A stretch of DNA of 64,000 nucleotides, taken from contig CP126192.1 in NCBI GenBank assembly GCA_030272155.1, forward strand, positions 1,956,501 through 2,020,500, given 5' to 3'. Made by a program: the position numbers and the translations under genes. Origin of the DNA: Tetradesmus obliquus (taxonomy: Eukaryota > Chlorophyta > Chlorophyceae > Sphaeropleales > Scenedesmaceae). The notes beneath the pieces are model-generated. The model had not been told where the DNA came from, searched no databases, and saw nothing but the letters and a program-made list of their open reading frames with translations. Below, piece by piece: positions 231-64,000 of this stretch (position 1 is the first letter of the stretch; every line of letters starts with the position of its first letter).

Positions 231-420
231 TCATGCTGCAGGTGCCTTCGAGTGCGGTGGGGCAGCTACTCATCTGAAGCCTGTACCCGGCACGCCCCGA
301 TCTGTTGCTTCTAAAATAGCCGCATCAGAAACCTGTCATCTGTGCTGCTGTCCTTATATGCTGCAGGTGCCATCACTTGAGGTGGGGCAGCTGCTCATCC
401 GCAGCCTGTACCAGGCACAG
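231..420 (+). repeat. Tandem copy of an intron-exon junction in the BTB gene
   Basis: The acceptor and exon start at 357-420 (CTGCAG|GTGCCATCACTTGAG..) has a diverged upstream copy at 231-296, offset 124 nt. The upstream copy keeps the CTGCAG acceptor and reads VPSSAVGQLLI before a TGA stop. The exonic copy continues with RSLYQAQ. The upstream copy is therefore a decayed decoy exon start. Confidence 0.75.
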
Positions 421-1384
421 CCGCAGCTGCAGCAATGCAGCCAGCCGCAGCTCCTGCAGCTGATCATGCTCGCAGACAGATTCGATGCCACAAAGGCAGT
501 GGCTGCCGCCAGCAAGCAGCTGCAGCGCATCGCAGCGCAAGGCCGCCTGGAATGGGCCACTGCCTGCCTCATCATGCGCTTGCCGCCTGCCTGCCCTGAG
601 ATGGCGGCATACAAGCCGCTGTTTCAAGCAGCAGCAGCGCTCATCCAGGAGGAGCTGGGTGACCTGGAGGTTGCTTGCGCAGATCAACAGGCAAAGTGGC
701 CCAAGCTGTTAGCGCTGCCCCACAGCTGGCTGCTGCAGCTGCTGTCAAACGAGGGGACTCGAGTCTCGAGCGAGAACACTGTTGCTTACGTCATCCAGCG
801 TTGGGGAGAGGCGCAGCAGCCGCAGCAGCCGCTGCAGCAGCTGCAGCAGCTGTGCGACACGATCCGCGTCGCGCGCTGCTCTCCGCTGTATGTAGCGACG
901 GTGCTGCCGGCATGGCCGCTGCTGGCGCAGTGCTTCACAGCGCAAGAGCACGCGGCAGCAAACATGCTGGCAGCCAACGCAGATGCCTTGTTGCGCCTCA
1001 GTTGCGCGGCTGAGGCTGCAGACGATGCAGCTCTGTGTCAGCAGCTGGAGCAGGACCTGCTGACTGAGCAGCGCAATGCTGCCCGCACTGCTGTGGTGCA
1101 GCGCCGCAAGGCATGGCTGCTGCCCTGCAGGCCACCCTCAGCGCGTGGGGCCGCAGTGGCCCAACCACTGACGTACGAACACAGCTTTCCCCTGAGTGCC
1201 TAGCAAGCAGCAATCGAGGCCACGTTAGCGCGCGCAACAGCCGGCAACTTAGCAGAGCCTGCTAACGTGGCCTGGCAGCTGCCAGCTTGGCGGGGCAGGA
1301 GCTATGCTGTGCGGCTGGTGGTGAAGACAGCAGCAGTGCCAGCAGCTGCGGACACAGCAGTGCCAGCAGCTGCGGAGGCAGCAG

Positions 1385-1430
<46 letters not shown>

Positions 1431-1566
1431 AGCAGCAGCAGCAAACCAACTCGCAGCGGGTGAGGCTGCTGAGCAGGCGCGCGACGATGCAGCAGCAGCC
1501 GCTGCAGCAGGAGGTAACAATGCAGCAGTGGCGGCGGCAGCAGCAGCAGCAGCAAGAGGTAGCAAT

Positions 1567-1602
<36 letters not shown>

Positions 1603-1960: not shown

Positions 1961-1998
<38 letters not shown>

Positions 1999-4634: not shown

Positions 4635-4705
<71 letters not shown>

Positions 4706-13438: not shown

Positions 13439-16400
13439 TTAGTGTGCCAGATCAGCCAGCTGGTCATCTGTCAGCTGAGACTCTGTGTATGCCTTCACCT
13501 CCACAGTCAGCTTGCGCGCAACAGGCTTAGCAGCAGCAGCCTCCTCCTGCCCCGGCTTAGCCGCATCACCGCCCAGGGTGCTGCTTGCGCCCATGGCCTC
13601 GATTGCTCGCGGCAGGTCGGCCTCTGTCAGCGGCTTGGCGGCCAGGTGCATCCAGGCCTTGTGCACGCAGCGGTTGTCGTGCAGCGCACGCCACACGTTG
13701 ACGCCCGCCTTCATGCCGCCACCCATGCCCACCTGCAGCGGGAAGGGATGGAGCGCGCAAACAGTACAGTGACAAGCATTTGCTGAGCAATGCTGCATGC
13801 TGACAGCCTGGTAGTTGCACATATCAAGCACAATGCATCAGTTGAGTGCTGTGACGCAGTGCCGCTGCCCCCCATGCCCACCTGCCGATGGGGCTGCAGC
13901 ACGCACACCCCAGACCAGTGACAAGCTGTGCTCCATGTGAGGGCTGCATGAAGACGCTCGCAGAATGCAGATGCACATACTACCAAGCCATGCCGCAGGA
14001 TGACGCTGGGCGGCTGTGTGGGCAGGCGGATGCAGTTATTGTGTGCTGAGTTGCGCTTGACGCAGGCCACAGCTGCTACAGCAGCATGCATGGCCCTCAC
14101 GCGGCTGGTCTCACCTGCAAGATGCGCTGGCCCTTGGTGACCTTGTCGCAGCTCTCCATGTATGCCATCACATACCTGGGCAGCAGCAGCAGCAGCAGCA
14201 GCAGCAGAGCAGCAGCATGGCGTCAACAGGGCTGCGGCATTGAGGCCTGTGTGTCCAGCAGTAACAACAGTACATCAGCTGCTGCATACTGTGATAACTG
14301 TAGTGCCAAGCAGATTGGGTGCGAAGGCGTCACAGCCGCCGCAAGCACAACTACAAACACTTGCTTGTCGCTGTGCACCTAAATGCAAAGTCAGCTGCTG
14401 TGCCTCTGTGCAGGCAACAGTGTGTGCAACTGTTTCAATGTTTGGCAAATGAGTGTACTGCAGCCTGGTGCTTGTCATCAGAGAAGACAATATGCTTGGT
14501 ACAGCCCCTCTCACCAGGTGGTGCTGCAGCTGGTGTTGCCGTAGTCGCGCAGCGCGGCGAAGCTGGGCAGCATCTTTGCGGCTGGCAGCGCCATGCCTGC
14601 CTGGATGCCCTTGAGCACCGCGTAGCCGCCTGCACACATCAAAGCATCCAACCACAGCATATGAGCTACGATTACACCAGCAAACAGGCTCAGCGGTCGA
14701 CAGTGCTGTGCGCGTCACAAAGGATGACGATTCAAAGCAAGCAAATGCCAGTGCAATGCCTGCAGCCGCCAGATAGCTATGGCAAGTGTCGATGGTAAGT
14801 TCCCATGGTGCAGCAGCAGGCCTGACAACATATAGCAGCCAGAAAAGGCAGCTGGCATGCAGGACGGCTTGCACTGCACTGCACCACACCGTACTACTCT
14901 GCACCGCACCGCACCTGCGTGGATGGCGAAGTGGTCGGCGCACTTGGTGTAGTCGGGCATGTACTCCGGCCACTCCTTGCCGAAGTGCTTGCCCACCACA
15001 TTGACGGCAGCCTCCGCATACTGGCCCCAGGTCATGATCTGCACAGGGGTAGCACGGGGATGCAGAGGGGGGCAAGGTCATAAGCTGGTGTTGGATGCAT
15101 GCAGTACAACAATGCATATGCCCTGCCTGATAAGGCTTGCGCAGCCTGTCAGAGGACGCAGCACTACCGCCACACCAACCACAGGGTACCTCACGGTGCT
15201 TATGCAAGTGTAACAGAGTGTCAGACCCAACAGCTCTCAGTGTTGCTGCAGCCTCCTGCTGTATGCCGCCTCTCACCCGTGGTGTGATCTGGCGCAGGCA
15301 GCGCTGCAGCGCGTCTGCCGCGCAGCTGACCACGTTCTTGCCCAGGTACACGCCGTTCACGCCGTCAGGGTCGGGACCCCAGCTCATGCAGCTGCATATG
15401 TGTGACACATGTGTATATGGCGGGCAGCAGCGGCAGCAACGCCGGCAATGGGGAAGGTGGTTGAGTGGGAGTCGAGTCGGCAGAGCTGCAGCGGGGCAAC
15501 TTGGGAACTGCAGGTGCATCAGCAGCGCAACTGGTCACCCCTGCTCCAAACAGCCGCTCAGCCAATGCCTGCAGGGCTGACCAGTGGCTGTGCTGGCTTG
15601 CTGGTGTGGCGCTAGATGTTGGGCTGCCCATGCCCCTCAGTGCAATGGCCATGTGTACATGTGTCTGATCCAAGGTTTTTAACATATTACAAGTGCCAGG
15701 CCCTCACCCGTAGCTGTCGTCGTCCTGGCCGGTGTGCACGCGCACGTTGTACTGCAGCTGGTACTTGGCGATACGGCTGTACTGCCTCTTGTTGGTCAGC
15801 ATGATGGCAGCACCCCCCATGCGGAAGATGCAGTTTGCCACCATGTACTGCTTGCGGGAGCCCGGGTAGAAGGCGTAGGTGGTGATCTCAGCCGGCACGA
15901 ACAGCGCGATGGCGTTGGGGCGCGCCTGCAGCAGGTCCCTGATCAGGCCGATGGCCATCACGCCTGCAGCAGCAAGCAAGCCAGCAAGCACACTTGATCA
16001 CACACTGTACATGCTCTGCTGTGACGGCATCTGAGTACTGCACTGGCATGGGCCTGGCTATGGATCACTGTGCAGCCAGCAGCAACACATCCGTACTTTC
16101 TGTTGCATGCATGTCAAAAAAGCACGCTGATGGCTCCATGCCCCCCGCGCACCGTTGCCGCAGCCCATGCCTCCCAGGTGGTAGCTCTGGATGTCGCTGC
16201 GGAACTTGAAGTGGTTGATCAGCATGGAGGCCAGGCTGGGCGTGGGGCAGAAGATGCTGCAGTTGGTCACAAGGATGTCAACCTGCTCAGGGCGGATGCC
16301 TGGGGAGAGGGCAGGGGGCAGCAGCAGCACGAAATATTATAATACACACCAATGTGCTTGGCAGGCACCAGGTGAGACGGCAGCGCAATGGACACGCCGT

Positions 16401-17574
16401 CTTTATATTATAGTATACTGTAATAATGGCCTCAACAGGTGCATGCAGTAGCAGCAAACAAGAGTGTGAATGGCCAGGAAAGCGCTGCACAGGAACAAGC
16501 TCCTTGAACACAGCCTATTTCAGCCTCAACAGTCAATTGCGGCTACTCAAATGCAGTACAATGCATGCTAATGCATCACGCCTGCGCCCTCACCTGTCTT
16601 TGCCAACAGGTCCTCCACTGCCCCTGTCATGACCGCCTTGGCCTCCTTGCCCGCTGTGGCCATGTCGTTCACGGGCTCCTTGGCATGGATGGGGTTGATG
16701 GCCTTGGGCAGGTACGTGCCTGCCAGGCGGGTACAACAGCGGCAGCAGCAGCAGCAGCACAAATGCAGTCAGCATCATGCGCTATATGTGTTGTGGCGGG
16801 TAGTCAGGTGACTTGTCTCAGCCAAGCCAACAACCACTGCTGGGAGGCCTGCCCAACTGCCAAACTAGAGTAGCAGTTTCTGTTGCCTTGACAGCAGAGA
16901 CAAAGCCTGGCTAATATGCTGGAGTGTCCAAGCATCGAGTTGGTGCTGTTTGAGTGGCTGGCCAGGCGGGGCTTGGCAGTCATGGCAGTGTAATGCTCCT
17001 GAGCAGCGGTACACTGCCTGAAGCTTCTGGTGGACCAGTGATCATGAGCGCAATAGGTCCCGCGTGCTGGTTGCCAGTGTGCGCGCACCTTTCTGGGACA
17101 GCCCGCTGCGCTCAATCACCTTGACCATGAAGGCCTTCATATCCTCGCTGTACATCTGCGGGCAGGGAGGAGCGGGGCAGCGCATTCGGCGGGCAGCAGC
17201 ATTGGCAATTGCAGAATCAGCCAGCGCAGCTGGTGTTGACATGAGGCTGTCACAGATCCTGTGTTGCATTCAGTTAGAAGCTGAGGCTGATGTGTATGTG
17301 AGTGTAGCCAGCAGGAAGCTGCTGCTTGGTGGGCTTCCTGCAACATTCACACTGCTGCTCACTATGTGACGCATTCATGCCAGTGCACAGTTGGTGAACT
17401 TGCAAGGGTATACATACGTATGACACCTGGCAGCAGCACACTTACGCTCCATTCCTTGCCCCTCTCTTCTGCGAGCTCTCTGTCCACCAGCAGCTCCTCA
17501 GGCGGCTTGTACACGGAGAAATCGACCAGGTACACCGGCGAAGGATGCGTGCTGTTGGTCGCTAGGCTAGCCAT
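13439..17574 (-). CDS. KCS: 3-ketoacyl-CoA synthase (FAE1 type), KCS-1
   Basis: Ten exons: 17574-17446, 17155-17089, 16719-16594, 16299-16153, 15963-15708, 15391-15277, 15038-14915, 14629-14515, 14175-14115 and 13732-13439. Total 477 aa. It is the condensing enzyme of the ER very-long-chain fatty acid elongase (malonyl-CoA plus acyl-CoA to 3-ketoacyl-CoA). The FAE1 start [13 protein letters not shown] is at residues 13-25. The catalytic Cys is in GGMGCGNG (about 150), the His in DHFAIHAG (about 315) and the Asn in DYGNTS (about 345). So the C-H-N triad is present. The conserved end [14 protein letters not shown] is also intact. The usual two N-terminal membrane helices are absent: an in-frame TAA lies 18 nt upstream of ATG 17574. 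Either a further 5' exon exists or the protein is not anchored that way. The Ala/Lys-rich tail is unusual. Confidence 0.88.
13708..13890 (-). repeat. Duplicated acceptor/exon start of the last KCS-1 exon
   Basis: The exon start at about 13708-13736 (plus-strand CCCATGCCCACCTGC) recurs at about 13862-13888 in the preceding intron, offset 149 nt. The copy is short and diverged. Confidence 0.45.
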
Positions 17575-20575: not shown

Positions 20576-23500
20576 TTGTGCATGGTCGCATTACTAAGGG
20601 TGGATTAGCGCTGTATCCCTGCTAGATTGACGAGGCCTGGACTGACATGATCCGCATGCTCGAGTTTTGAATGTTGTAGGGCCGCACTACCTTGGGGCCG
20701 TGTGTGCAGCTGGCTGATGCTCTGCTGCGTGCAACTCCCCAGCCGGCAGCAGCTCTGTTGCACCAGCTTGGCAACAAAGCACAGCACCAAGCATTGCCTT
20801 TGCTCGCTGCGTGTCCCATGTCCTCTCACCCTTACACATGTTGCTGCAGATGAGCCCACCAGCGGGCTGGATAGCTTTGCTGCGCTGAGTGTGATGAGCC
20901 ACCTGCAGGGCCTGGCACACGCCTCGCGCAAGGCGGTGGTGGCAGCCATCCACCAGCCACGCAGCGCGATTTGGAGCCTTTTTGACAAGGTGCGCGGGCG
21001 CGGCTGCTCGCAACGCTTCATGATGTGCTGGCTTGGGCTGTTTCTCTGCATGCTATGCCTGGATTGCACTGCTTGCGGCTAGAAGCTGTGCTGTCATCGC
21101 ATGTCAAGCTGCTGGACTTGCACTGTGCAGCTACTGCCTGTGCTGAGTCGGCACAGTCAGCTGTGGTCCTGCCCAATGCACCATCACACCTGTGACAGTC
21201 CAGGAACTCCCCTGCACAGCCGACAGACCAACATTACTCACTTGCCACGCGCTTGCATCGACATACAGGTGACGCTGCTGGCGTCTGGGCTGCTGATCTA
21301 CCACGGCCCCACGTCCGGCATGGTGCCCTGGCTGTCAGGGCAGCTGGGCTACAGCTACGAGCCTGCTGTGCACGGCCTGGCCAGCGACTGGGCGCTGGAC
21401 CTGGTGGTGGTGGAGTTTGCCAAGCCAGGGGTGAGGCTCTTCACTGAATAAATGCATCCACAAGTGTGCAGAAGGCTGTGTAGTAGTCTGGGGATGAAAC
21501 TCGATAAAATATTTAGTGGATTCTGCAAGCCCTCACCTTGTGGTGGTGGAGGTTGCCAAGCCAGCGGTGAGTGGTTTGCAAAGCTGGAGGGCAGGCTTGA
21601 TGTTTTGGGCTGTTGTTTTGTTGATAGCAATGGTGACGTGAATGCTGTGTAGCCCGTGAGGGCTGACTTGGTGGTGGAGCTTGCCGAGCCAGGGGTGGGC
21701 CGTTTGCAAAAGTGACCGTGACGCTCTGGTGCGGCATAGATGCATGATGCAAGTGCGTGTCACCAGATCAGTCAGTGCTGTGCTTGCCAGCTGGAATGGG
21801 GGGGGAGAGTTAGCTGTGATGTTCAGGCTGGGACAGCACGCCCACCACTACTGGCAGCGCAGCCAATGGTCAGGCAGCCATGCCACAGCACCGGCATCAG
21901 TATCAGCCCAGTGTTCAGAGGGCGGCACAGCACCCTCAATGATCAGCTAGTGGCAACTGGCTGCGCGTTGTGCAACATGTGATGTGTTTAGGCAGAGCAG
22001 CATGCGCAACCGTGCCTTGGTGCTCAACATCAGCGTCGATTGTGTTGCTGCGCTGCCTGTGCTGCGCAGGCTTTCCACGCGCGCACTATGACCGCGTTAG
22101 CAGAGCTGCAGGCAGCTGCCAACACATTCAAGCTGCAGTACGTCTGTGACCAGCTGTATAATGATGAGCGGCAGCAGCAGCAACAGCGGCAGCAAGAAGC
22201 CGGTGCCTATGGTGCATCTGCTGTGACTGGTGTCCTGTGCCGAGCTCTACACAGCCATGCAGCACAGCAGCAGCAGCAACAGCTGGCAGAGCTTCCGGAA
22301 CAGCAGCAACAGCAACACGTGGGCCATGCTGCAGCAGATGAAGGCAGCAGCAGCAGCAGCAGCAGCAGTAGCGCAGCATATTGCACCAGCTGGCTGCAGC
22401 AGTACCGGGCGCTGACGTGGCGCGAGTGTGTCAAAGTAACACGTAACCCCGCTGATGTGGCGGGGCGGCTGCTGACCTTCACATGGGTGGCGCTGCTGGT
22501 GGGGCTCATCTACTACGACCTGCCTACTGATGCGGGCAGCATTCGGCAGCGGCTCAACCTGCTGTTTGCCACGCTGTGCTTCTTTGTGCTGATGCCCTTC
22601 GTCAACATGAGCCTGTGAGTGTGTAGGGCGGTGTGGGGTTGGTGTATTATGACAGTTTTAGGTGTGTTTGCGTGGGTGTTTGTTGGTTGCTAGTGGGGCA
22701 GCCTGTGGCAGCTGCCTGCTGGATGGCAACCTGCTGCTGCCTTGTTTGCTGTCAGTGGCTGTTGGGCTTCAGCATGGCAAAGCTGCGTAATTTGTTGCAA
22801 AGCCTCCCAAAGTATCATGGGCTAGAGGCATGCCATTTGTGCACATGATGCATGCAGCGGCTCAAGCAGCACAAGTGATGCAGGCCCGCGTCACCGTGTG
22901 GGTGTCTGCGGCTCAAACATAACCACCATGCTGTCTGCTGCTGCTCATCATGGTGTCCATGGTGCTTGCTGCTGCAGCTACACTGAGGACAAGGGCTCAT
23001 ACCTAGCTGACAGGGCAGCTGGCTTGTACGCGCCAAGCGCATACTATGCAGCAAAGGTGCGGAAGGGAGCTGGGATACAGCCGCATGCCCGCATGTGCCA
23101 ATTCGGCTGCAGGTGCTGCAGCCGCTTGCAGCAAAGCCAGTGCACACAGCAAGCCAGGGCCTAGCTCATGCTTTGTCTTGCTCATGGTAGGCATAAACAA
23201 GCTGTCTCAATGCAAACTGGCATGCTAAGGGAGCTGCAACCACCGCCGCCTACGCCGCTGCTGCTGCTGCTGCTGCCGCGCAGGTCACCGCCACAGTGCC
23301 CTTCAGTGCGCTGACCGCGCTGTGTGCTGGCCTGGTGCAGTACGGCATGACTGGCATGCGACCGGGCGCTGGCCACATCTTTGGCCACTGCAGCATTGGC
23401 GTGCTCACTTTCCTCATCGCGGTGCAGGTGCGGCAGCAGCTGCCAGTAGGATGCTTGATGTTTGCAGAAAAAGCGAACTCGTGCCTTTTCGCTAATAAGC

Positions 23501-24972
23501 CAGCTCTGGTTCTTCAATAGCACTGTTGCTGAGCAGCGTTTTAAGCACACCCCATGTCGCAGCAGCACGTGCTCCCTGTTGCAAAACGGCAGCAGAACTT
23601 TTTTCACCATGATCCACCGCATCGTGTGAGCCCTGCTCAGAACCCATCAGCACACTGCGCTGCGCGCCTGTCGCCCCGCCTGCTGCTGTGCGCCTGCCTG
23701 CCCTGCCTGCAGGTGCTGCACCTGTCTGCCACGCTGACCCCCAGCCAGGACGCGTCCTTCATGCTGGGCATCGGCTGGACCACCTTCAACCTGGTGCTGT
23801 CCGGCTTCTTCATTCCCTACAAGGTGCGCCCGCGGGGTATGCTTTTGGTCTGTGGTTCCTGTGCTAGCATCTAGTTCCCCCTACATAATCCTGCTGTCCG
23901 GCTTCTTCATTCCCTACAAGGTGCGCCAGCCTGGATTGCTTCTTCCACCTGTGCTGGAATCCCTGCGCTTGATGCACCAAGCCCTGCAGGAGTGAGCAGC
24001 AGCACAATTTGGGGCTCAGGCTACACATTGTCCTAGCAGTGCATGCTTGTGCACGTGTGGTCATGCCAGCAGCGTGGCTGCAGCCAACAGCATCCATCTG
24101 CACGCCTGCGCTTGATGCACCTGTGTCAAGCCACGCAGGAGTGAGGAGGAGCACAACTTGGGGCTCAGGCTACACACTGTCCTATCAGTGCATGCTGGTG
24201 CACGCGTGGTCATGCCAGCAGCGTGGCTGCAGCCAATAGCATCCATCTGCATGCCTTGCTGACATCGACCTTGCGCATCTCTCCCCTGCACCTCTGCAGG
24301 AGATCCGCTTCGCGCCGCTAGCCAACCTGCGCTTCCTGTCAGCGCTGCACTACGCATTCGAGGGCATGGTGCAGATCGAGCTGGGCGGCCGCCGCTTCGC
24401 GTGCCCCGCAGCCGGCCTGGACTCGCAGTCTGCAGCGTTCCTCACGCAGCTGCTGCCCGGGGCTGCGGCGCTGCTGAGCCCCAGCCGGCTGCAGCAGGCT
24501 GTTGGCGCGCAGCAGGGCTGTGCGGTGGACAGCAGCGCGGTGGCAGGTGAGGCGCGGCATGAAGCAGCGAAGCAGCGCTGCTGCATTGTGCCATGTGCGA
24601 TAGCAGCACAAACGGGAGATGTTGAGAGACGAGACGCATTGGGGGCTGTGGGTGCGCCGCGGCATGCATGCTGCAACACAGCACACAGCTCAGCAGACAG
24701 GTTGCAGCTGTGGTCATGATGGCTAGTGATGCTGTGCCAGCAGTACCAGCGCGCACGCTGCACTGCAGCAAGTAGTGTTCAGCCTTGCATAGACTGCTTG
24801 CCATCACTGTTGCTGAAGCTGGTGTTTGCTGTCTTGCTGCTGCGCTGCAGCGTACTTTGGCATGAGCCGCCGCTTTGGCCCCACCATCGGCATCCTGCTG
24901 GGCTACCTGGGGCTCATGCATGCAGCAACCTTTGCGGCGCTGCTGATGGTGGCGCGGCGGGAGCGCAGATAG
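18413..24972 (+). CDS. ABC transporter, G subfamily (half-size)
   Basis: Twelve exons: 18413-19054, 19421-19573, 19889-20212, 20415-20526, 20850-20989, 21269-21430, 22070-22614, 22978-23056, 23284-23427, 23713-23823, 24300-24546 and 24851-24972. Total 926 aa. Order: an N-terminal hydrophobic segment (residues 10-35), a Ser/Gln-rich linker, the nucleotide-binding domain, then the transmembrane domain. This NBD-first order defines ABCG. Motifs seen: Walker A GPSGAGKSS, Q-loop YVPQDD, signature LSSGERRRLSIAV (LSSGE for LSGGE), Walker B ILFLDEPTSGLDS and H-loop IHQP. The membrane part has LLTFTWVALLVGLIYYDLP, a long NPADVAGRL approach and a final GILLGYLGLMHAATFAALLM helix. Plant ABCGs export lipids, waxes, sterols or hormones as dimers; the substrate here is unknown. 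A 31-Gln run interrupts the NBD between Q-loop and signature. Confidence 0.9.
19187..19203 (+). repeat. Poly-G run of 17
   Basis: An uninterrupted G17 run in the first ABCG intron. It could fold as a G-quadruplex or be a sequencing-difficult homopolymer; its length may be inexact. Confidence 0.9.
20030..20122 (+). repeat. Pure (CAG)31 tract coding poly-Gln inside the ABCG NBD
   Basis: 31 uninterrupted CAG codons lie in frame in exon 3 of the ABCG gene. They fall between the Q-loop region and the signature motif. Confidence 0.95.
21402..21706 (+). repeat. Triplicated exon end plus donor in the ABCG gene
   Basis: The exon end LVVVEFAKPG|GTGAGG (21402-21436) is followed in the intron by two diverged copies at 21539-21580 and 21666-21706, offset 136 and 128 nt. 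Each keeps a GTGGTGGAG..GCC(A/G)AGCCAG(G/C)GGTG core including the donor. Confidence 0.8.
23797..23927 (+). repeat. Duplicated exon end plus donor (34 nt identical)
   Basis: The exon end coding LSGFFIPYK with its donor GTGCGCC (23797-23830) recurs without change at 23894-23927 inside the intron, offset 97 nt. Both copies offer an identical 5' splice site. Confidence 0.95.
23965..24260 (+). repeat. Two tandem ~145-nt intronic units
   Basis: A unit beginning CGCTTGATGCACC at 23965 repeats from 24110, with high similarity through GGGGCTCAGGCTACACA and CAGCAGCGTGGCTGCAGCCAA. It lies in the same ABCG intron as the duplicated donor at 23894-23927. Confidence 0.9.
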
Positions 24973-46462: not shown

Positions 46463-48586
46463 TCAGCTGCGACCAAGCAGACGGCTCACCACGGGCTTCA
46501 TCTTCATGTAGCGCAGCATGCGCGGCAGGTCCAGCAGCTGGCCCCTGAACAGGCGCAGCCACTCGTTGAAGTCGATGAGCGCGTTGCCGTCCACGTCAGC
46601 GGCACTGCAGCAGCAGGCGGCCAGGCGATTCAATGGTGCGCAGGTGGGCAGGCATCTTGATTTCGACGGTGCGCACGTGGGCAGGCATCTTGATCAAGTG
46701 AACTTGTTTGCAAGTAGTGCTGTGTTGCTGTATCAGCCAAGACGGCGCTGCTACAGCAGCAGCCAGGCGGGTAAGTAGGCAGCTTTCTGAGTGCCTGGCT
46801 GCTCTTGCATGTCAGCAGTACTGCATTGCTGTGTGGTGCAATGCAGCTGTACAACCAGGTCGCATGAGTGCCTTCAAGAGCATTACAAAACAAACAACAT
46901 GCTGATGAAATGCAAACAGCTCGCCCAGGCCACTCACGCCATGATGTCGGCCACCTGCTGCGGGCTGATGGGCCGCCCCAGCTGCTGCAGCACTCACCAC
47001 TCAAGATAATTCACATCAAGAGCATGCACATACACAACATCTACAACAGCGCTCGTGCCACTCACGCCATGATGTCGGCCACCTCCTGCGGGCTGATGGG
47101 CCGCCCCAGCTGCTGCAGCACCGCGGCCATCTCCTCGATGCACAAGAAGCCGTCACCGTCCTCGTCAGCAGCGGAGAAGACCGCCCTGCACGCCACCAGG
47201 CAGAAATAATACGGCCTGACGGCAGGGATAACACGCCTAACGGAATTGAAGTAAGTGGCAGGTTGCACAGCATTGCTGGCTGTTCCGCTTTGGTAGTGAA
47301 GCGTGCAAGCAGAGAGCAGGCAGAAATGGCGTCAGAATGTCTGGCAGCAACACACGGCCTGGTGTCTGGCGCTGCTCCCTGCGGCTGGTATGGCAACAGC
47401 TGCTGCTGCTGCTGCTGCTCTCATTCCCGGTCCCACCTGTACTCCTCGAACTTGCCGTCCAGCAGCACGCCATCCAGCACAAGCTCCATGAACTCGCTGA
47501 ACGACAGCCCGCCCCTGGCACGCCACAGCAGCACGGCATGGCAGTGTTGACAAAGAGCATACCTGTGGGGGCATGTAAGCATGCTAGCGACGTGTCCATT
47601 TAGGATGATGTGTGGTTTGCAGCACAGTGTTGCTGAAATCTTCAGCTATGGCTCTGATCTCACGCGCAACTCCATCCGCAGTGCTGCCGCGCACCTGTTG
47701 GTGGTGTCGTACAGGCTCATGATCTCGTCAAGGTCTGGCTCACTCAGCCAGCGGTGCTGCACAGCATAACGCACACAGTTTGCAGCACATGCTGATTGCG
47801 GAAGTGTTTGCAGCAGTGGCACTGTGACAGAAGCTGGTATGGTGCTGGGCCTGCATGCAACGCCCATCAAGCTGTTGCTGCGTGTAGAAGTGGCCCTAGG
47901 TAAGGTGAACGCTGTACCTGGCCGACTGGAGGCAAAGCAGGCCATTGCTGCAGCCTACTTACTCGCATTCAGTCATGGTAGCTGCCACTGCTGCAAATTT
48001 CTGGCACCAGGATACTGCGCTGTTGCTGCTGCTGCTGTGCCCCACCTGTGCTATCATGCAGATTCCTGCGGTGCAGCGCCCGTCTGATTGCAGCAGGTGG
48101 CGCACTTCCTCCCTGTCCAAAATGCCATTGCCGTCCTGCCAGAGGCAGCAGCATCAGGCAGGCAATAGCAATGACAACAGCCCCCGCACATGTCGCACGG
48201 AGTCCTGAGCGGCATGCAAGACAACATACCAACCAGTAAGCTTGCCCCCTTGTCAAGGCAGGCAGCTGCGAGAATGACAGGTTCAAAAAACATATAATCA
48301 CACACAGTTCTGCGCGGGCATGCACGCTGTGTGAAGTGTGCACACACGCCTGCTGCCATGCCAGGTCATGACCTGTCATAATCATGTCTGTGTTCATGCA
48401 TGCTGGTTGTGTGTGTTGCAAGCCAGCAGGTCACAGTGAGCTGCACCTGCGTGCTGCAGCTGCTGCGGCACGCACCTTGTCGCAGATGGTGAACAGGTCC
48501 ATGAGGTGGTTGAGGTGCATGCGCGTGGAGGGAGACCATGTGGGCATGCGCGCCGCCCATGGTGGCTTCTGCGCCTGTGCCTGCAT
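46463..48586 (-). CDS. Calmodulin-like protein with four EF-hands
   Basis: Exons are 48586-48476, 48135-48046, 47756-47695, 47514-47437, 47185-47066 and 46604-46463. Phases agree and give 200 aa. Three canonical calcium loops are seen: DKDGNGILDREE (residues about 36-47), DEDGDGFLCIEE (about 122-133) and DVDGNALIDFNE (about 158-169). A degenerate one, DTTNRGGLSFSE, lies near 85, where calcium ligands are missing. Each loop is split from its helices by an intron in typical places. It is a calcium sensor or buffer; the partner is unknown. The N-terminal 25 residues (MQAQAQKPPWAARM..) precede the first helix. A coding-looking stretch upstream (about 48770-48830, QQLLLTLEKAVSR) hints at another 5' exon, but its phase does not fit. 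Confidence 0.85.
46633..46700 (+). repeat. Short tandem repeat (about 41 nt)
   Basis: Two neighbouring copies of GGTGCGCA(G/C)GTGGGCAGGCATCTTGAT lie in the last intron of the EF-hand gene. Confidence 0.9.
46930..47124 (-). repeat. Duplicated exon end plus donor in the EF-hand gene
   Basis: The end of exon 5 with its GTGAGTGGC donor (47058-47124) recurs at 46930-46994 in the following intron, offset 128 nt. It is nearly identical over about 55 nt (QQLGRPISPQ.VADIMA|GTGAGT). Confidence 0.92.
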
Positions 48587-53623: not shown

Positions 53624-55595
53624 ATGACAAACCCTGTTGCCACCCCATCAGGTGCCAGCCGACCCAGCAGACTTCAGCACCTCCTTGAGGCGGCTGCTGC
53701 TGAGAGCTCCAGCTGCATGCTGGCTGCTGTGGAGCAGGTGCTGGCTAAGACAGGTGGGCGCAGCAGTGCAGGAAGCAGTGGAGACAGCAGTGAGCCATTG
53801 TGGGTTGCAGGCAGTCTGACGCGCGGGCAGCAAGCAGGTATTGCCATTGTTGTCAATGTTCTGCTGCATCATGATGTGGTGTAAGCCGCCGTGTCGGGTA
53901 TGTCCTGTGCTCCCTGGGCGCTGCAGGTGGCACACATGCGACAGGCAACCGGCAGCCACGCATGTGCCCTCTTTAATCCTGCACAGCCATCCCTCCTTTT
54001 CCTTGCAGGCCTCAAAGCCACAGACATTGACATCCTCGTGACCACAGGCTCAACCTTCCACCCAGGTGGGCGCAAAGACCACTGGCAGTGCACAATGCTG
54101 TTGCTATGGCTGGAATGGCGGTAGGGCTTTGAAGATTGCCCCTGCCAGTCTGCGGTATACAGTGCGTGTGGGAGCATACGAATCCCATCGTTCACTTACA
54201 TTTGCATACAATTTTGCGGCTACAAGTCAAGCCTGTCTGAGCCTCTTGGAGTCTGCCAGCTCACACACAGCAGGACTTGTGCTGTACATGCGTTGCCATC
54301 AAGGTGCTGTGCAGCTTTAAATGAGGAGTGCCTCAGTTCCCCAGGAGCCCACCACCCAGACAGCTGTGACGCCAACACCCACATGCACTTTGTAGGCACT
54401 CAAGCTGCCTATCCTCCCTGCAGCACCACACTTGGACTGCATACTGTGCTGGCGTGCCGCCTGCCTGCATGTGTGTGATGCTGTGCAGTGCCGTCGCTGG
54501 GTTGCACGCTGGTCAACACCTTCAAGTTGCGGCACGACATCAAGTCGTACCACCTGGGCTGCATGGCGTGCGCTGCTGGGGCCCTGGGCATCAACCTGCT
54601 GCGAGACCTGCTCAAGGTGACAGCTGAGGTGCTGCAGCATTTGTGTCCGGCCTGACTTGTGGTTTGGCTTGATGGACGTTCCAATGTTGGCCCTTACATG
54701 ACTCAGCGACACACAGCAGCAATCAGGCACACTATGTGGTGCAACAGTCTGCCGTCAACAAGCCCTGCTTGCCCTCTGCTGGTTGTGCATGCATGCAGGC
54801 CAACCGCAGCAGCATCGCGCTCTTTGTGCCACACGAGAACGTTACAGCAGGTGCGCTGTGCGCCACTGATGGCTGGCAGAGCGCTAGCATCATTTCTTGG
54901 TTGATCTTAACCCACCTTCACACCTTTAACCTAACGCCTGTTGTTAAAAACCCACTGCAGCTGCAGCCGTGGCAGCTTGTAGCCTGTGCCCCCTGCAGCA
55001 TTACAGCGTATATATATGCATGCACATGCACGGCACCTTCTGCAGCGCTTGGCTGCCTGCCACGCAGAGCAGTCACGCCACACACCATCGATGGGCGGTG
55101 TGCAACACTGCTGCTGCTGCTGCTGCTGCTGCTGCCGCCTGTGCAGGCTGCTACCTGGGCAGTGACACAAGCAAGTTCCTGGCCAATGCCCTGTTTGACA
55201 TGGGCGCTGCAGCCCTGGTGCTCACCAACAAGCGCTTGCTGGCTAGCAAGGCAAAGTACAAGCTGCTGCACTCGGCCAGGGCAGATGTAGGCCAGGATGA
55301 CAAGGTGTACAGATCGTTGGGCATCTTTGAAGGGGACCCTGCTGGTGACCGCATCAAGTACACCGCAGACGTGCCCATGGCAGCGGCATCCGGCATCCGC
55401 GCTGCCGTGGCAATGGTAGGTAATGATGCAGGCTACAACGCCAGGAAGTGATGTGGCTGCAGCTGCTGTAGCCATGGCGGTGTATCACAGCTACCTGCTG
55501 CAAGTGGCACCAGCATGGAGCGCAGTGTGATGTAAAACATCCATCTTTCTATCTCACTGTCTCCATTGCTGCTACTTCTTTTACTGCTTCTTCTT

Positions 55596-55626
<31 letters not shown>

Positions 55627-56856
55627 AGGTTGCTCCCAAGGTGCTGTCGTGCGGGCAGCTGGCAGCAGCAGCAAAGGCTGCAGTGGTGCGCCGGCTCAAG
55701 GGGCCAGAATCAGCACCTCACTATATCCCCAGCTTTGCTGACAGCACCATCAACCACTTCCTGCTGCACCAAGGTACATGGCTGAATAACAAAGTTGGTG
55801 TTGAGTTGCTGAGGAATCTCGTGCATCATCTCATGATGGAAAACACACTTCCAGGCCAAAATCTTAGGGATTAGTTACTTGCAGCGGCCCAGAGAGCCTA
55901 TACTTCCACCAATGCATTGAAACACGTGTTTCTTGAGTAGCCAACAGCAACTCAGGTTGATGGTTTTACACAATAGAAAGTAAGTGCTTGTGGCTGTGCC
56001 TGTGCAGGCTCCCACGGCCTGCTCAAGGGCTTCATGAAGGGGCTGGCGCTGACTGTGCAGCACACCCTGCCATCGGCAGCAGCCCTCAGGTGGGGCCCAG
56101 CTCAGGTGCTTCACTGCAGGGCAGACACACAGTACTGTGGTTAATCAGCCTGGAAGAGCAGTGCGTTAACTCGAGCGTATTGAAATCAAACGAAACTGAA
56201 TCAACACCTCCGGATATTTGCATTATTCAGGTTTAATTCACTGTTTCGTGTGCAGGGACTACGGCAACACCAGCCCCTCCTCAACCTACTATGTGCTGTC
56301 CTACCTGGAGTCCCTGGTGGGCGTCAGCAAGGGCCAGAAACTGATGCAGGTGGGCGGCAGCTTGCTGTCTTCCTTTCTCACGTATACAAGATGCTGCCGC
56401 AGCACAGCAGCTGCATGCATTACGCAGCACACCCAAGTGCTGCTTGCCGGCATGTGTTGGAACACGTCACAGTGCTGCTGACTGACCCCAATGTACGTAG
56501 TTGTTATAAGCTACGGTAGCTGTTAGGTTGACACTTTTGTCCTTGCAGCATTGTGCTGTTGGTCTGATGCTGTTGCTGGTATCACCCGCTGTGGCTGTTA
56601 CGCGTGCTGCTTGCAGGTCAGTGTGGGCACTGGAGTCAAAGCTGGGGTCAATGTGTGGCAGGCGCTGCGTGACATCAAGGAGCAGCACCCCGCTTGGCAG
56701 CACCTGCAGGGCGTGCCTGTGACAGAGGCAGACCTGCCGCTGCCGCTGCGGGCGGTGCAGGGCGAGGACAGCCATGCGGACACAGCACGGGCTCTGAAGG
56801 CGATGGGTGTCACGGGCCCTGCCAGCAAGGATGTGGATATTGCGGCCTCAGGCTAG
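53624..56856 (+). CDS. KCS: 3-ketoacyl-CoA synthase, short form, KCS-2
   Basis: Nine exons: 53624-53753, 54009-54065, 54489-54616, 54799-54850, 55147-55415, 55629-55773, 56008-56089, 56256-56349 and 56617-56856. Total 398 aa. Homologous to KCS-1 from its middle onward: AAVEQVLAKTG|LKATDIDILVTTGSTFHP, PSLGCTLVNTFKLRHDIKSY, catalytic Cys in CMACAAGALG, His in NHFLLHQG, Asn in DYGNTSPSS, and the end GVKAGVNVWQALRD. The catalytic C-H-N triad is thus present. About the first 100 residues of the FAE1 domain (PVYLVDF.. and TYLPK..), plus any membrane helices, are missing. No upstream exon for them is visible in the 970-nt spacer. Three intron positions are shared with KCS-1 (after AKTG, after HxG, and before VxxGxGxKAG), showing an old duplication. 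Whether the short form is active alone or pairs with a full synthase is unknown. Confidence 0.85.
55600..55627 (+). repeat. (CTG)n tract ending in a 3' splice site
   Basis: CTG units run straight into the acceptor CAG of KCS-2 exon 6. A similar run at 55110-55133 precedes exon 5. Confidence 0.85.
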
Positions 56857-58178: not shown

Positions 58179-61100
58179 TTATGAGGGCGCACCCAGGTAT
58201 GCTGCCAGGCGCAGCAGGTCACTAAACACGCCGCCTGCTGTGACTGCCGCGCCAGCGCCAGGCCCGCGCACGATCAGCGGCTGCTGCTTGCCGTAGCGCG
58301 CTGTGGTGAAGGCAATAATGTTGTCGCTGCCCTGCAGCTGCGCAAACGGATGGCTGGCAGGGTACCTGCAGCACACACACATGAAGAAGGCAGGCATGGC
58401 AGGCAGGCAGTGCGAATGTTAGTGAGTACAGAAAAGCCCGCAACTCAGCAGTTCATAAACCACTATATTGCTGGTGTTTAGCTTTTCAAAGCGACCAGCA
58501 GCGCGCCACCCCGTGCGGCACCTGGACGATCGCTAAGACACGCATGGAGAACATATCCCTCCAGGAGGCTGAGACTCAAACAACAGCCGAGGGCCACCTA
58601 CGCAGCTCCATGCTACCCTTGCCCGCTTTGTCAGCACACAATACATGTGACTTCAGCTCAGCACACACAGCAACAGCAGTGTGTGGTCTACAGCCCACCT
58701 GCGCAGCTCCACGCTGCCCTTGCCCGCCTTGACGTCCACCACGCCCACGTAGCGCAGCACCTCGCCGCTGGCGCGCGCCGCGTCCAGCTTGGCAGCCATG
58801 TCAGCATCAAACTCAGGCAGCCGCGACATGTACTCCTCAGCGGTCTTGCAGGACCGCAGCGGCTCAGGCACCTGCGAGGGTAGAAAAGGCAAATGGCAGG
58901 CGTACGCGTGGGCAGCAAATGGTTAGGCAGCGCACGGGGAGGGATGCGGGATGTGTGTGCCGTGTTCTCCTGCTGCGCGGCGCGCTTGACATGGCTTTGT
59001 CAATGCTGCTGCAGCAATCACATCCAATAGTTGCGCACGCAACACCATAACTTCACGCTCTGTCCAGCTGCTCTGCCTGTGTGCCAGCCCTTCGGCCGCA
59101 GCACCACCTGTGCCGGCACCAACGTGAGCTGTCAGCATGGCTGCAGCAGCGCCTGGCACCAGGGACTGGGAATCCACGAAATGTCGTCCAGCTCCAGCAT
59201 CAGCCCACACTGCCCTATCACAAACACGTTGCATTCCAGTTTCAGCAAGCTATCAAAATGGCTGCAACTTGTTTTACCCACCAGGGACTCCACGGGGATG
59301 TCGTCCAGCTCCAGCATCAGCCCGCACTCGCGGGCCAGGATGGCCACCTTGCGCGCCACGTCGGTGCCGTTGAGGTCGTCACGAGGGTCAGGCTCTGTGT
59401 AGCCCTGCAGGAACAGTTAGGCGGACGGGGGACAACCGCAGAACAGTAGCAGGGGAAAAGGTGAGTGCGCAGCGGGGGTCAGACTTTGTGTAGCCCTGCG
59501 GGGGAAGATCAGGGCAGATGCAGGCATGGCACATCAGCACAGTGACAGCAGCGGTGCATATTGAATGCGCAGTGCTTTCGTGCGGATGTGGTGCATTTTA
59601 AAAACGCTCTGGCATGGGAGACGAGGAGTGCGTGGTGCGTGCAGGAAGTGTGTAATGCTTGTTTGGCTGGTTGTTTGGCTGGATCGTTGACGGAAAGTTT
59701 GACGCAATGTCAGATTGGGTATTTGACCGGTGTCTTTGAAATGTGGGCAAAGACTTGCTGCACGCCTGCTGCCCAGACAGGCGCAGTACGCAAGCTGCAT
59801 TGCACACCGCCCCGGCCTGCACCTGCGCCTTGGCGTCCTTCACGATCTCGCTGAAGGGCCGGCCATCACCAAAGGTGTTGAAGATGAAGGACAGTGTGCC
59901 GCTGAACACTCCCTCCACCAGCTGCGCCTTGTCACCAGTCTCAAGCAGGTGCTTCAGCGTGCCGATAATGGGCAGCCCCGCACCCACAGTGCCCTGCAAG
60001 CGCGGCAGCGAGGGAGCAGAGGTCAATTGTCAGTGATCAGGCAGGCGTGCAGTAGCAGTGCTTCAGCATGCCAATGATGGGCAGGCCAGCACCCACAGTG
60101 CCCTGCGCCACGTTGCTACAGCCACACGAATGACCAGCATGTACGACAGCGGCATAAACCGAAAGCAGCCAACACAGCAGCGCGCAGCACGCCGCACCTC
60201 CTAGAAGAAGTGCATGCAGGGTATTCATAACCAGCAGGCACAGCTCCAGCGCAGCATACAACGAAACAAACTTACACCTCACAGCAGCACAGCTCCCAGC
60301 GCGCACCTCGTAGAAGAAGTGGATTAGGACTCCCCACAGCTGCCCCACCACCATCGACCTACACAACCAACCCAACCAAAAGGCAACCGTCGTAATCACA
60401 TCTCCAAGCTGTGCCGCACCTCGTAGAAGAAGTGAATGTAGGACTCGCGCTGCATGCGGCGCACCGCCTGGTAGCGCTCCAGCGGGCCGCTGCCCAGCTT
60501 CTTGTTGGGCGTGATGATGTTCAGCCCCTTGCCCATCCACTCCAGGTAGTGCGCAGGCGGCGCGTCGCTCGCAGTGCAGTCCACGATGGCCAGGTTGGGG
60601 ATGTAGGATGAGGCCAGCGCATCACCAAAGGCCTGAGGGGTTGTACCGAAAAGGAGGCAGACAGAGCAGAGCGGGGTCAATTGATTCACTGAGGTGAAGG
60701 CAGCATGATGGCAAGGGTGCGGGATGTAGGACGAAGCAAGCACGGCACAAAATGTCATATGTCCGGCTTGTCCAACAGCAGGCAAGCTTACATGCGCTAA
60801 CTGCCGCAGCTGGTAGTGACTCGTGTTGTTGCACACCTTGCAATACACCCCATCTTAGGAGCACTGTCTGCCTCTGGGCGCACCTGCAGGTCGCTGGGCT
60901 GCTTGTTGCTCTCCCACTGCTGCCGCCAGTTGGCCAGGTCGATGCCTCCCTCACTGGTGAGCATGTGCTTGCTGTCAGCGATGCCCAGCACGCGAATGTC
61001 GATGTTGAACTCCTCCCGCAGCTGCACCGCCTGCGGTTGGTGGCAGCAAGTGTGACGGGCAGTTCGGCAGCCAGCAGTTGCGGATGCAGTCAGCACACAA

Positions 61101-62092
61101 CAACTGCGAACGGTTTTTGATACACCCACGTACACTCAAAGTCAACAGCATGTCACCACACCACACACAGCTGCGCTCCTGCTGCTGCACAAGCCCCACC
61201 TGCTCGCGCAGCTGCTCGATGAGTGTGCCGCCAACCAAGCCGCGGGGCTTATGCTGCCACAGCATGCACACCAACAGCATGCTGCCACAGCATGCACATC
61301 AACAGCATGCTGCCACACCCCACAGTTGCACTCCTCCTGGTGCTCTGCAAGCCTCACCTGCTCGCGCAGCTGCTCAGTGAGCATGCCACCAAATAAGCCC
61401 GCGCCCACAACATACATGATGCAATCAACAGCATGCTGCCACACCACACAGCTGCTACACGTGCTCCTGCACTCCCTCGCACCTGCTCGCGCAGCTGCTC
61501 GATGAGTGTGCCTCCAATCAAGCCCGGGCCGACAATGCCCACACCAATTGGCACGTCGCTGAGGTAGAAGCGGCTGTGCACGGCGCGCAGCGCGCGCTCG
61601 CTGTCCTTCTGGTCGATCAGCACGGTGATGTTGTACTCCGAGGAGCCCTGAGGCAGGGGGACACAGTACGCGATGAGCAGTGAGTTGATGAGAACGCTGA
61701 TGTTGTACTAGGGGGAGCCCGAGGGGGGTGGCGACAGCACGTCAGACACGCACGTGTGCAGACTGTGCGCAAGCATGCACGCAACATGACGCACTGCCGT
61801 CCTTTCACTGCCGGGGCACACTACAGCCTTGCTGAAACTTGCTGATCATTTGCTGCCACCACACACAATACACAAGGCACCACCCTATCAAGCAAGCCCA
61901 CAGCCAGCACACCTGTGCCAGCGCCTTGATGTTCACGTTGGCCTTGGCCAGTGCCCCCATCATGGTGGCAGCCACGCCCTTGCGCCGCACCATGCCCTGG
62001 CCCACTGCAGCCAGCACGCAGCAGTTGTCGATGCGCTCCACGCCGCTCACGCTGCAGGGCGCAGGCAAAGATGCAGCAATAGCAATAGCAAT

Positions 62093-62140
<48 letters not shown>

Positions 62141-64000
62141 CGGAAGCAGGACATCTCAGCAGCACACATGGCGTGCAAATAGCATTGGCAGCGCAGTACA
62201 TTGTGATCACCCAGCACGCACAACCCACCTAAAAGCACTGTCCGTGACCTGCAATCAACAGCTTTGTGCTACAGCACAGCACAGCACAGCCGGCACATTC
62301 AAACTGTCAACGGCCCCTCATCACATCCTATTGCAAAATTACTGCAGCAGCAGCAGCACTCACCGTCCCGCGCTGATGCTGTCTGCGAAGCGCTTCTTGA
62401 GCACTGCCACTGCTGTGTCTCCCTCGCTGCCCTTGACCGCAAAGCAAATGCTGTGCTCACTGCTGGCCTGGCTGATCATGATCACGTTCACGCCGGCATC
62501 ACGCACCGTGCTAAACACGGCGCTGGCGATACCTGCAAGTCGACGTGCGAGCGCAAAGGTCAGTGGGTGGCCCGGCTGGTGCGCCGCAGTGCGGCAGCTA
62601 GCATGTTTGATGCATAGACGAAGCACTGGCCTGTCAAACTGTGGAGGCTATGGAAGTGCACCCTTCACTGTCACAATCTTGCGAGTTGTACGTGCGGTTC
62701 CTCACGTCCTCAGGCTGCTGCCGTGCAGGAAGGCTACAGCAGCAGCAGCAGCAGCAGCAGCAGGTCCTCCCGCACAGCCACTGCTCACCTGGCACGCCCA
62801 CCATGCCTGTTCCCTCAATGTTGATGAGGCACACATTGTCAATGGTGGCAAAGCCCTTGATGGTGACAGCGCCCTTGCTGAACTTCTGCTCAGCCTCCAG
62901 GTCCAGTACCTGCGTGCCTGTTGGAGAGAGGGAGGAAGAGGGAGAGACAGCAGAAATAACAACAGCAGCAGAGACACATGGCAGCGGGCAGGGGTGTTGA
63001 TAGAGTTGCAGGCATGGGGCAGTGGCTGGGTTAGCTGACAGTCCACGGCACACCGCAGCCAAGGTTGCGGAAGCATTGTGACTGTCATGCAGTAGACGAA
63101 GGAAGTGGGCAGCGGTGCATGCAGCTTTTTTAACAGCAGCCCCATGTACAGCAACTCTCGCCGCTCCCGCCTCACAGCTGATCTACCCCAAAACTCAACA
63201 TTGCGCACACACAGTCCACACTGCAAGAGCTTTTCTGTCATCCCGTGACGCACCTGGCGCCGCCAGGTTGAAGAAGTTCCTGATGGCGATGGGGATGCTG
63301 TACTTCATGGCCGGCAGTGTGGTGCGCGGGTGCAGCACATTGGCGCCAAAGTAGGAGAGCTCCCAGGCCTCGTGGTAGGTCAGGCTGGGCAGGCACACCG
63401 CCTCAGGCACCTGCAGCGCAGTTGGTGTGGGGGTTGTTAGTATGGTGAAAGTCAGCAGGCAGACAGGAGCTCCCAGGCCTCGTGGTAGGTCAGGCTGGGC
63501 AGGCACACCGCCTCGGGCACCTGCGCGGGGCAGTGGCGTAGTTGGAGGTTGGTCAAAGGGAGCAAGCAGCGATGTATGGAGAGCAGTGTGTGAGCACGTT
63601 CTTGGTGCATGGAAGAGGTGCAGCTGGTCCCTCGCCTGTCTGCCGGGATGCACTGTATCCCGCACCATCAAAGGACAGCCCTGCATGTCAACTGCTGCTG
63701 CTGCTGCTACAATTTGCAGTGTAAGATGCTGCTGCCAGCGCGGGGTTTGCAAGCCACCTCTCCCGCATGCTGCTGCTGCTGATGCTGCACATGCCCCAAA
63801 CAGCAGATCCTCTGCTGCTGCTGCCGCCGCTCACCTTGCGCGGGTCCGCCGAGTACACGCCGTCCACGTCTGTCCAGATGGTGATGTGGCCGCTGCGGAA
63901 GAGCGCGCCCATGATGGTGGCGGAGAAGTCGCTGCCGTTGCGCTTCAGCGTGGTGGCCTGGCCCCTGCGCAGCAGTACAGAGAGATTTGGCCAGCAAGAA
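58179..64000 (-). CDS. AKHSDH: Bifunctional aspartate kinase-homoserine dehydrogenase, 3' part
   Basis: Partial: the kinase N-terminus lies right of the window. Visible exons are 63964-63835, 63410-63254, 62917-62789, 62532-62364, 62051-61913, 61647-61483, 61030-60884, 60632-60420, 59993-59823, 59404-59282, 58871-58699 and 58365-58179. It phosphorylates aspartate and reduces aspartate semialdehyde to homoserine, leading to threonine, methionine and isoleucine in the plastid. Seen in order: kinase end ([33 protein letters not shown]), two ACT regulatory domains ([14 protein letters not shown].., [16 protein letters not shown]..), Rossmann loop [16 protein letters not shown], then the HSDH catalytic core [39 protein letters not shown] (catalytic Asp/Lys) and a C-terminal [13 protein letters not shown]...LGAPS. 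The ACT domains imply threonine feedback, as in plants. Nearly every intron carries copies of neighbouring exon edges. Confidence 0.93.
59158..59335 (-). repeat. Duplicated exon end in AK-HSDH
   Basis: The exon segment coding [15 protein letters not shown] (59281-59335) recurs at 59158-59213 in the next intron as [11 protein letters not shown].., offset about 117 nt. Confidence 0.88.
59386..59500 (-). repeat. Duplicated acceptor/exon start in AK-HSDH (GYTEPDP exon)
   Basis: The exon start with its acceptor at 59386-59408 recurs, diverged, at 59474-59499, offset 91 nt. Confidence 0.7.
59951..60450 (-). repeat. Intron built of ~110-nt copies of both flanking exon edges
   Basis: In sense order: the real exon end (HFFYE|GTGCGG, about 60414-60450); two copies of that exon end plus donor at about 60301-60330 and 60191-60219; a copy of the next acceptor and exon start (CAG|GGCACTGTGGGTGCTGG..) at 60061-60106; then the true one at 59952-59997. 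Offsets are 113, 109 and 109 nt. Confidence 0.92.
61197..61530 (-). repeat. Triplicated exon end plus donor in AK-HSDH ([14 protein letters not shown])
   Basis: The Rossmann-loop exon end at 61480-61530 has two intronic copies at 61355-61404 and 61197-61250, offset 125 and 158 nt. Each keeps LREQ and a GT donor. A CAGCATGCTGCCACA minisatellite sits between them. Confidence 0.93.
61614..61722 (-). repeat. Duplicated acceptor/exon start in AK-HSDH ([11 protein letters not shown])
   Basis: The exon start 61614-61652 has a diverged copy at 61686-61722 (contains GATGTTGTACT), offset about 72 nt. Confidence 0.75.
62094..62139 (+). repeat. CAG tract in an AK-HSDH intron (CTG in sense)
   Basis: About 15 units upstream (in sense) of the acceptor of the [11 protein letters not shown] exon, followed by TTGCTA units. 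Confidence 0.85.
63359..63524 (-). repeat. Near-identical duplicated acceptor/exon start in AK-HSDH
   Basis: About 55 nt at 63359-63412 (CAG|GTGCCTGAGGCGGTGTG..) recur at 63468-63524 in the preceding intron with one obvious mismatch, offset 110 nt. The upstream copy has its own good acceptor (CGCGCAG|GTGCCCGAGG), so it is a plausible decoy or alternative splice site. Confidence 0.95.

Follow-up and report, generated by a model that had tools for sequence, protein, structure and literature searches.

The introns of several genes in a 64-kb stretch of the green alga Tetradesmus obliquus (CP126192.1, contig C2:1956501–2020500; the whole stretch is called the window below) contain diverged copies of the neighbouring exon edge together with its splice site. 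This raises the questions of whether such copies are a general feature of the genome and how they came to lie in introns. Our analysis revealed that copied exon edges in introns are a real and general phenomenon in this genome, and that the codon changes between exons and copies carry a coding signature. The analysis took in the window and further stretches of contigs C1 (200 kb), C5 (20 kb) and C10 (20 kb), 304 kb in all from one genome (assembly of 104,662,953 bases in 17 contigs). Genes were predicted with a splice-aware gene finder that was self-trained on these 304 kb of DNA alone and included an exon length distribution and strong repeat masking. It returned 43 models with 518 exons and 475 introns (median intron 243 nt), and the splice sites that it learned were ordinary (donor CAG/GTGAG-like, acceptor TGCAG/G-like).

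With exon letters only, the exon edge was found copied in its own adjacent intron on the donor side in 54 of the 475 introns, on the acceptor side in 52, and on either side in 92. The same edges compared with one intron of another gene each gave 0/475 on both sides, which excludes chance and leaves a dispersed introner family unsupported; as the initial annotation had claimed, existing junctions are affected, unlike the case of transposon-borne introners. At least one copy was present in 24 of the 43 models, and identities ranged from about 0.7 to 1.0 among the pairs listed, which agrees with the standing process that had been proposed. Introns with a copy were also longer (median 336 nt, versus 233 nt for those without), in line with the proposed lengthening of introns.

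The copies are concentrated at junctions. Masked, ungapped self-comparison yielded 380 repeat pairs in the 304 kb at lags of 30–400. Among the 143 non-redundant pairs at lags of 60–200, 96 contained a predicted junction, against 40.6 (sd 5.3, maximum 55) after random relocation (300 runs). The remaining classes all fell below this null: intron-only 19 versus 30.8, exon-only 7 versus 18.4, mixed 19 versus 25.5, and intergenic 2 versus 27.8. Because the finder sometimes calls copies exons, the junction class is somewhat inflated, and the introns affected are probably more numerous than counted. The initial annotation had staked its proposal on junction repeats being commoner than intron-only or intergenic ones, and in the 304 kb they were, measured against random placement. 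The lags peaked at 100–130 nt, with a lesser peak near 240, and the offsets were mostly 100–150 nt.

The AK-HSDH gene, which lies on the minus strand at the right end of the window, allowed these results to be checked with an annotated protein. The best match of its model was a Tetradesmus obliquus UniRef protein (labelled P0001), with 94% identity over 99% of the model. Residues 206–838 of P0001 mapped exactly on 12 window exons, whose boundaries are accurate to within a few nt; two isolated six-residue matches at other places were disregarded. The finder's model departs from P0001 where copy-derived pieces were taken in, and the annotated protein contains no copy. With the exons from P0001, 7 of the 11 introns carry copies of an adjacent exon edge, while the exon edges gave 0/180 matches with non-adjacent introns of the gene.

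These AK-HSDH copies are as follows, in order of transcription and with identities in brackets. The acceptor-side copy of intron 1 (63467–63524) corresponds to the exon start 63357–63414 (98%), and its single changed codon is synonymous. Intron 5 has an acceptor-side copy containing a stop (61684–61719, from the exon start 61612–61647; 0.81). Two donor-side copies are found in intron 6, at 61358–61410 (exon end 61483–61535; 0.83) and 61200–61241 (exon end 61483–61524; 0.95). Intron 8 (59994–60419) carries two donor-side copies, the first at 60307–60324 (exon end 60420–60437; 0.94) and the second at 60198–60220 (exon end 60420–60442; 0.87), and one acceptor-side copy at 60058–60102 (exon 59949–59993; 0.89), in which four codon changes are synonymous and one is nonsynonymous. 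The list is completed by an acceptor-side copy in intron 9 (59473–59495; exon 59382–59404; 0.87), a copy in intron 10 (59181–59211; exon 59298–59328; 0.97), and a donor-side copy in intron 11 (58597–58630; exon 58698–58731; 0.88).

The AK-HSDH result bears on the suspicion that the copies are an artefact of the assembly or of the gene finder. The gene models are self-trained and at times turn a copy into a mini-exon, as an artefact would have it. In contrast, the exons derived from an independent protein agree with the copies and leave their control empty, the identities of the pairs are spread widely rather than uniform, and the reading-frame signature in the codon changes described below indicates that the predicted frames are right. 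An artefact is therefore very improbable.

Donor- and acceptor-side copies mirror each other. The exon part has a median of 40 nt on the donor side (49 pairs) and 43 nt on the acceptor side (41 pairs), and the intron part is short (median 10 and 7 nt, respectively). In the exon-only test, 34 of 54 donor matches and 35 of 52 acceptor matches stop no more than 2 nt from the junction. The splice dinucleotide, which was outside the selection criterion, is kept in junction-reaching copies (GT in 27/36 donor-type, AG in 33/40 acceptor-type), which supports the view of the initial annotation that the copies seed decoy splice sites. The edge is sharp: in 45 pairs whose matches were required to extend 2 nt past the junction, identity was 0.91 and 0.89 across the final 20 exon nt; on the intron side it was 0.94, 0.86 and 0.71 over +1 to +6, fell to 0.46 at +7 to +10, and was 0.28–0.44 beyond. 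Copying by the spliceosome or from RNA was rejected, since donor and acceptor numbers are nearly equal (54 and 52) and spliced RNA would be without GT and AG.

One rival explanation is plain replication slippage or tandem duplication of 100–150-nt units, placed at random and left to decay neutrally; a junction excess would then result from the purging of duplications in coding sequence and from the lack of decay in the exon partner. Some young arrays of whole units are present (C1:19320, lag 118; C5:3963, lag 151; C10:6649, lag 100; C1:66346, lag 183; block coordinates of the fetched stretches), and tandem duplication is therefore part of the process. Intron flanks on average outscore mismatched controls, with z > 2 in 31 of 71 pairs. 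However, homology was recognisable at z > 3 in only 20 of the 71, whereas in simulated whole-unit duplications at the divergence of the exon parts (indel rate assumed) 98.6% of the flanks exceeded this value. Flank and exon-part similarity were uncorrelated (52 pairs, Spearman −0.03), and by hand count 13 of the 19 pairs with an exon part of at least 25 nt and at least 95% identity have a flank z of 3 or less. The near absence of intergenic repeats also argues against random placement, as does the junction to intron-only ratio of 5.05 (96:19) compared with 1.35 for uniform duplication in copy-free gene structures, an expectation that longer survival of exon-anchored pairs might lift somewhat. 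Together with the codon changes, these results make plain duplication unlikely as the whole explanation. Thus, the tandem-duplication reading of the initial annotation survives for the young arrays and fails as a plain short duplication, given the low flank homology and the coding signature.

Codon changes were examined in 106 exon–copy pairs, and 208 of the 347 changes were synonymous, 134 were nonsynonymous and 5 produced a stop. The synonymous share of 0.60 (bootstrap 0.54–0.66) exceeds the value of at most 0.44 for an unconstrained copy (p = 1e-9), a bound that takes the copy as free from birth and the exon as fully constrained, with substitution rates from intron-only pairs, CpG included. 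Neither plain duplication nor any other origin as a free copy predicts such a share. In pairs with flanks aligned over at least 70% (27/74), divergence was 0.207 in the flank, 0.183 at third positions and 0.034 at first and second positions; the corresponding values for third versus first and second positions in the other two flank classes were 0.174/0.058 and 0.175/0.052. CpG hypermutation was rejected as the source of the third-position excess, which holds outside CpG sites (0.036, 0.035 and 0.116 at positions 1, 2 and 3).

Comparisons among the copies themselves gave a mixed picture. Between two copies that were both intronic (35 pairs), 51 changes were synonymous, 45 nonsynonymous and 2 stops. 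Twenty triples, each of one exon with two copies, were also compared: the changes seen in a single copy alone were 29 synonymous and 24 nonsynonymous (p = 4e-5 versus the neutral 0.28), those seen in the exon alone were 12 and 4, and three-way differences were 4 and 16. Some copies are plainly decayed, for example one in a C5 gene with 3 synonymous changes, 7 nonsynonymous changes and 1 stop. To judge from these patterns, the copies resemble sequence that acquired most of its differences while still coding and became intronic only later.

One way to obtain a coding signature is present function: the copies would serve as alternative or redundant exon edges, or as poison exons, in some transcripts, and hence be under selection. 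The retention of most splice dinucleotides fits this idea, as does the strong synonymous bias of single pairs (9:0 in a kinase gene, 7:0 in C5 gene model 39). In contrast, 60 of the 69 junction-reaching copies are partial exons and only 9 are whole ones, and an AG or GT is no commoner at the inner ends than in the background (13/34 and 14/35, versus 0.36 and 0.41); a test for equivalent splicing via inner AG/GT motifs gave no support. Furthermore, constraint seems weaker in the whole-exon copies than in the partial ones (ratio of divergence at positions 1 and 2 to that at position 3, 0.48 versus 0.21). Present coding use is unlikely for these three reasons. The lags are not multiples of three (21, 31 and 17 with remainders 0, 1 and 2), stops are not avoided (5 of the 347 changed codons versus 6.7 expected for a free copy, as plain duplication also predicts), and the annotated AK-HSDH protein is without any copy. 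A functional role is thus improbable as a general explanation.

Alternatively, the copies may be refreshed by gene conversion, or from spliced cDNA, solely from the exon on the same chromosome. This accounts well for the sharp edge at the splice site and for unrelated flanks beside near-identical exon parts. It does not account for the codon changes, because a copy that has been reset evolves freely thereafter and a synonymous share of no more than 0.44 is expected, nor in its cDNA form for the GT and AG that most copies keep. We regard it as improbable too.

We propose, with a confidence somewhat short of even, that the copies are explained by recurrent unequal exchange or conversion among exon-edge blocks, in many cases with diverged homologous chromosomes as the source. 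A unit of about 100–150 nt (about 40 nt of exon and about 75 nt of intron, with the splice site between them) would be duplicated beside a junction, at donors and acceptors alike. Splicing would stay at the outer, original site, so that the copy would leave with the intron, lengthen it and persist as a decoy; outer-site use is indicated for AK-HSDH by the annotated protein and predicted for the other genes by their models. The exon-edge block, made up of the exon end and the start of the splice site, may then be the sole stretch still homologous enough for pairing. Unequal crossing-over and gene conversion inside this block could add, delete and renew copies, while the flanks drift or are swapped. 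Exchange with a diverged homologue would import a silently different exon edge along with a functional splice site and another intron flank. Such a homologue may have supplied much of the copied sequence, and the mainly synonymous differences in untranslated copies would then be explained because the donor exon had been under coding selection. By hand estimate, at least about half of the silent divergence would be older than the move into the intron, with the exchanging partners about 9–13% apart at silent sites.

Several observations weigh against this proposal. The synonymous excess is independent of flank homology, and CpG is the sole context modelled for the third-position excess. The shares in copy–copy pairs (51/98) and in triples (29/53) are little above the value of about 0.44 obtained by hand calculation for successive snapshots of an evolving exon. 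In models 23, 36 and 40, the synonymous to nonsynonymous counts are reversed (0:4, 1:6 and 2:7), and the four window genes together (16 synonymous, 11 nonsynonymous and 2 stop) are too few to decide on the coding signature. The junction class includes copies modelled as mini-exons; the unambiguous set, in which one copy lies across the junction and its partner is fully intronic, comprises 52 pairs (23 donor, 29 acceptor). Diverged donors are inferred from one haplotype, and the silent divergence that they would require is high. Paralogous introns on C5, described below, stay alignable at a comparable silent distance. Finally, exon parts that are 97–100% identical beside unrelated flanks require block-limited conversion in addition to duplication.

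A bolder extension, which we consider possible but doubtful, is that the introns are an archive of former coding haplotypes, with exon edges serving as recombination modules and each copy being the retired exon edge of a diverged homologue captured by unequal exchange or conversion. If this is true, intron length records past outcrossing, and the genome carries fossil alleles next to living ones. A coding signature in seemingly untranslated copies is in any case unexpected, and copies that came from other haplotypes could be matched to living alleles of other strains.

This study also provides insights into how the copies relate to known systems. Introner-like elements are a family present at many loci that adds intron sequence to many genes; in contrast, the algal exon-edge copies were found solely in the introns of their own gene. 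Tandem exon duplication, which gives rise to mutually exclusive exons, likewise repeats exon sequence and splice sites within one gene, but the algal copies are mostly partial exons with one splice site. Intron creation by tandem duplication (Rogers; Hellsten; the potato RdRp gene) in its original form involves an exonic AGGT segment, with a lag equal to the intron length (PMC4974935). The likeness lies in a short duplication at splice signals, which in potato RdRp covered an upstream intron–exon stretch (PMC4974935), and the difference is that a new intron arises there whereas existing introns grow here; the signature of intron gain by this model was found in 0 of the 475 introns (score of at least 12, shift of at most 2 nt). 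In Arabidopsis TOUCH3 (Knowles and McLysaght, as cited in PMC4974935), exon–intron stretches are also multiplied in tandem within a gene, but the duplication there took in a whole intron and the exon sequence at either end of it, whereas the algal copies are one-sided and intronic. Polyubiquitin genes with dual-specific splice sites (PMC10809524) similarly form tandem arrays of units bearing splice sites; those sites are used and delimit monomers, whereas the anatomy of the algal copies makes their use unlikely. The algal copies are thus set apart from known in-gene tandem duplication in being one-sided, junction-bound, within introns and with a coding history.

Titles and abstract openings returned by literature searches gave no description of such copies in Scenedesmaceae or other green algae, which does not establish their absence from print. 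Arguments about intron lengthening and the origin of decoy sites often rest on individual examples; in this alga, copies are visible beside the source exon in 92 of 475 introns, and the rate, age distribution and splicing cost of the process can therefore be measured in one genome. The results are also a warning for annotators, because a gene finder takes the copies for extra exons.

In the window, self-comparison at lags of 30–600 found 26 repeat pairs, including the BTB, ABCG, EF-hand and AK-HSDH cases, and 4 of the 11 window models have copies under the stricter exon-only criterion. Pfam searches with eight pieces identified Clp protease, protein kinase, COX15, mitochondrial carrier, alpha-amylase, GCS2 with BTB_2, BACK and EF-hand domains; the model with GCS2 and BTB_2 is probably two genes fused by the finder. 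Among the window genes, Pfam supports the BACK domain, the EF-hands and, through P0001, the AK-HSDH domains. The names ABCG and KCS were given by eye, as were the remaining gene names without Pfam support.

The BTB gene has a degraded acceptor-type copy at 233–293 (plus strand), 85% identical to the exon start 358–418 at a lag of 125; it contains an in-frame stop, which confirms the badly decayed copy noted earlier near position 231. Two exon ends of the ABCG gene (plus strand) have been copied. The first, with its donor (21399–21435; model exon end 21430), is the source of two donor-type copies in the intron, one at 21535–21571 (lag 136) and the other at 21669–21710 (lag 264 to the exon and 128 to the first copy). 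The second (23795–23844, with donor; model exon end 23823, next exon start 24300) has a donor-type copy at 23892–23941 (lag 97). The 34 identical nt reported for this pair at 23797/23894 proved to be a run of 36 nt (23795–23830) that includes GTGCGCC. The same intron contains a fully intronic two-unit tandem repeat at 23978–24256 (plus strand; lag 149 nt, 92%). In the EF-hand gene (minus strand), self-comparison identified the exon end with its donor at 47057–47121 as the source of a donor-type copy at 46929–46993 (98% over 65 nt, lag 128), which was partly modelled as a mini-exon.

Two model stretches resemble 3-ketoacyl-CoA synthases (KCS) by eye, 13499–17574 (minus strand) and 53717–56856 (plus strand). 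A repeat scan at a lower threshold found one weak repeat in the former and none in the latter; the match of KCS-1, 22 nt at 13864–13885 (minus strand) against 13715–13736 (lag 149, score 17), is not established as a copy. The initial count of at least six genes therefore shrinks to four clear ones (BTB, ABCG, EF-hand and AK-HSDH), with KCS-1 a single weak match. Likewise, the offsets of 72–160 nt given at first are correct for the nearest copies in the window but leave out further ones at 222–283. Tracts of (CAG/CTG)n are very abundant across the whole window.

Individual arrays elsewhere illustrate the variety of the copies. In the ClpP gene (C1:1019320–1019860), five near-identical units, including the exon, repeat an exon end of about 64 nt at 118-nt spacing, and several were read by the finder as in-frame exons. 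By eye, blocks with GGAGGA and with GGCGGC adjoin the same flank in this array, and the last GGCGGC block adjoins a different one. In the kinase array, ACC and ACT are each paired with both flank types, a pattern for which recurrent mutation at the site is also possible. Judged by eye, both arrays appear to contain blocks re-paired with flanks.

On C5, two paralogous inverted loci 55 kb apart (C5:1007310–1008219 and C5:1062519–1062979) share an exon-start array, with four versus two intronic copies by eye, which implies gain or loss of units. The homologous intronic copy in the paralogue with fewer copies has amino-acid changes, again by eye. In one of the two loci, AACATGT repeats lie on either side of a 29-nt insertion.

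As a further test for a dispersed introner family, the genome was searched with four copy-bearing stretches; the search skips common words, and intron bodies were not themselves clustered. One found only itself, one itself and adjacent DNA, and one itself and a 72% match over 107 nt on C5; the fourth found itself, adjacent DNA, the paralogous C5 locus and a 79% match over 84 bases on C11. Paralogous genes were rejected as the donors of the copies, since the kinase and AK-HSDH stretches have no second locus in this search; one C5 gene has a paralogue. At C1:1038000–1038520, three acceptor-type copies have GT (gtgagt) where the coding exon has GC, and each of them resembles a 22-nt mini-exon between AG and GT.

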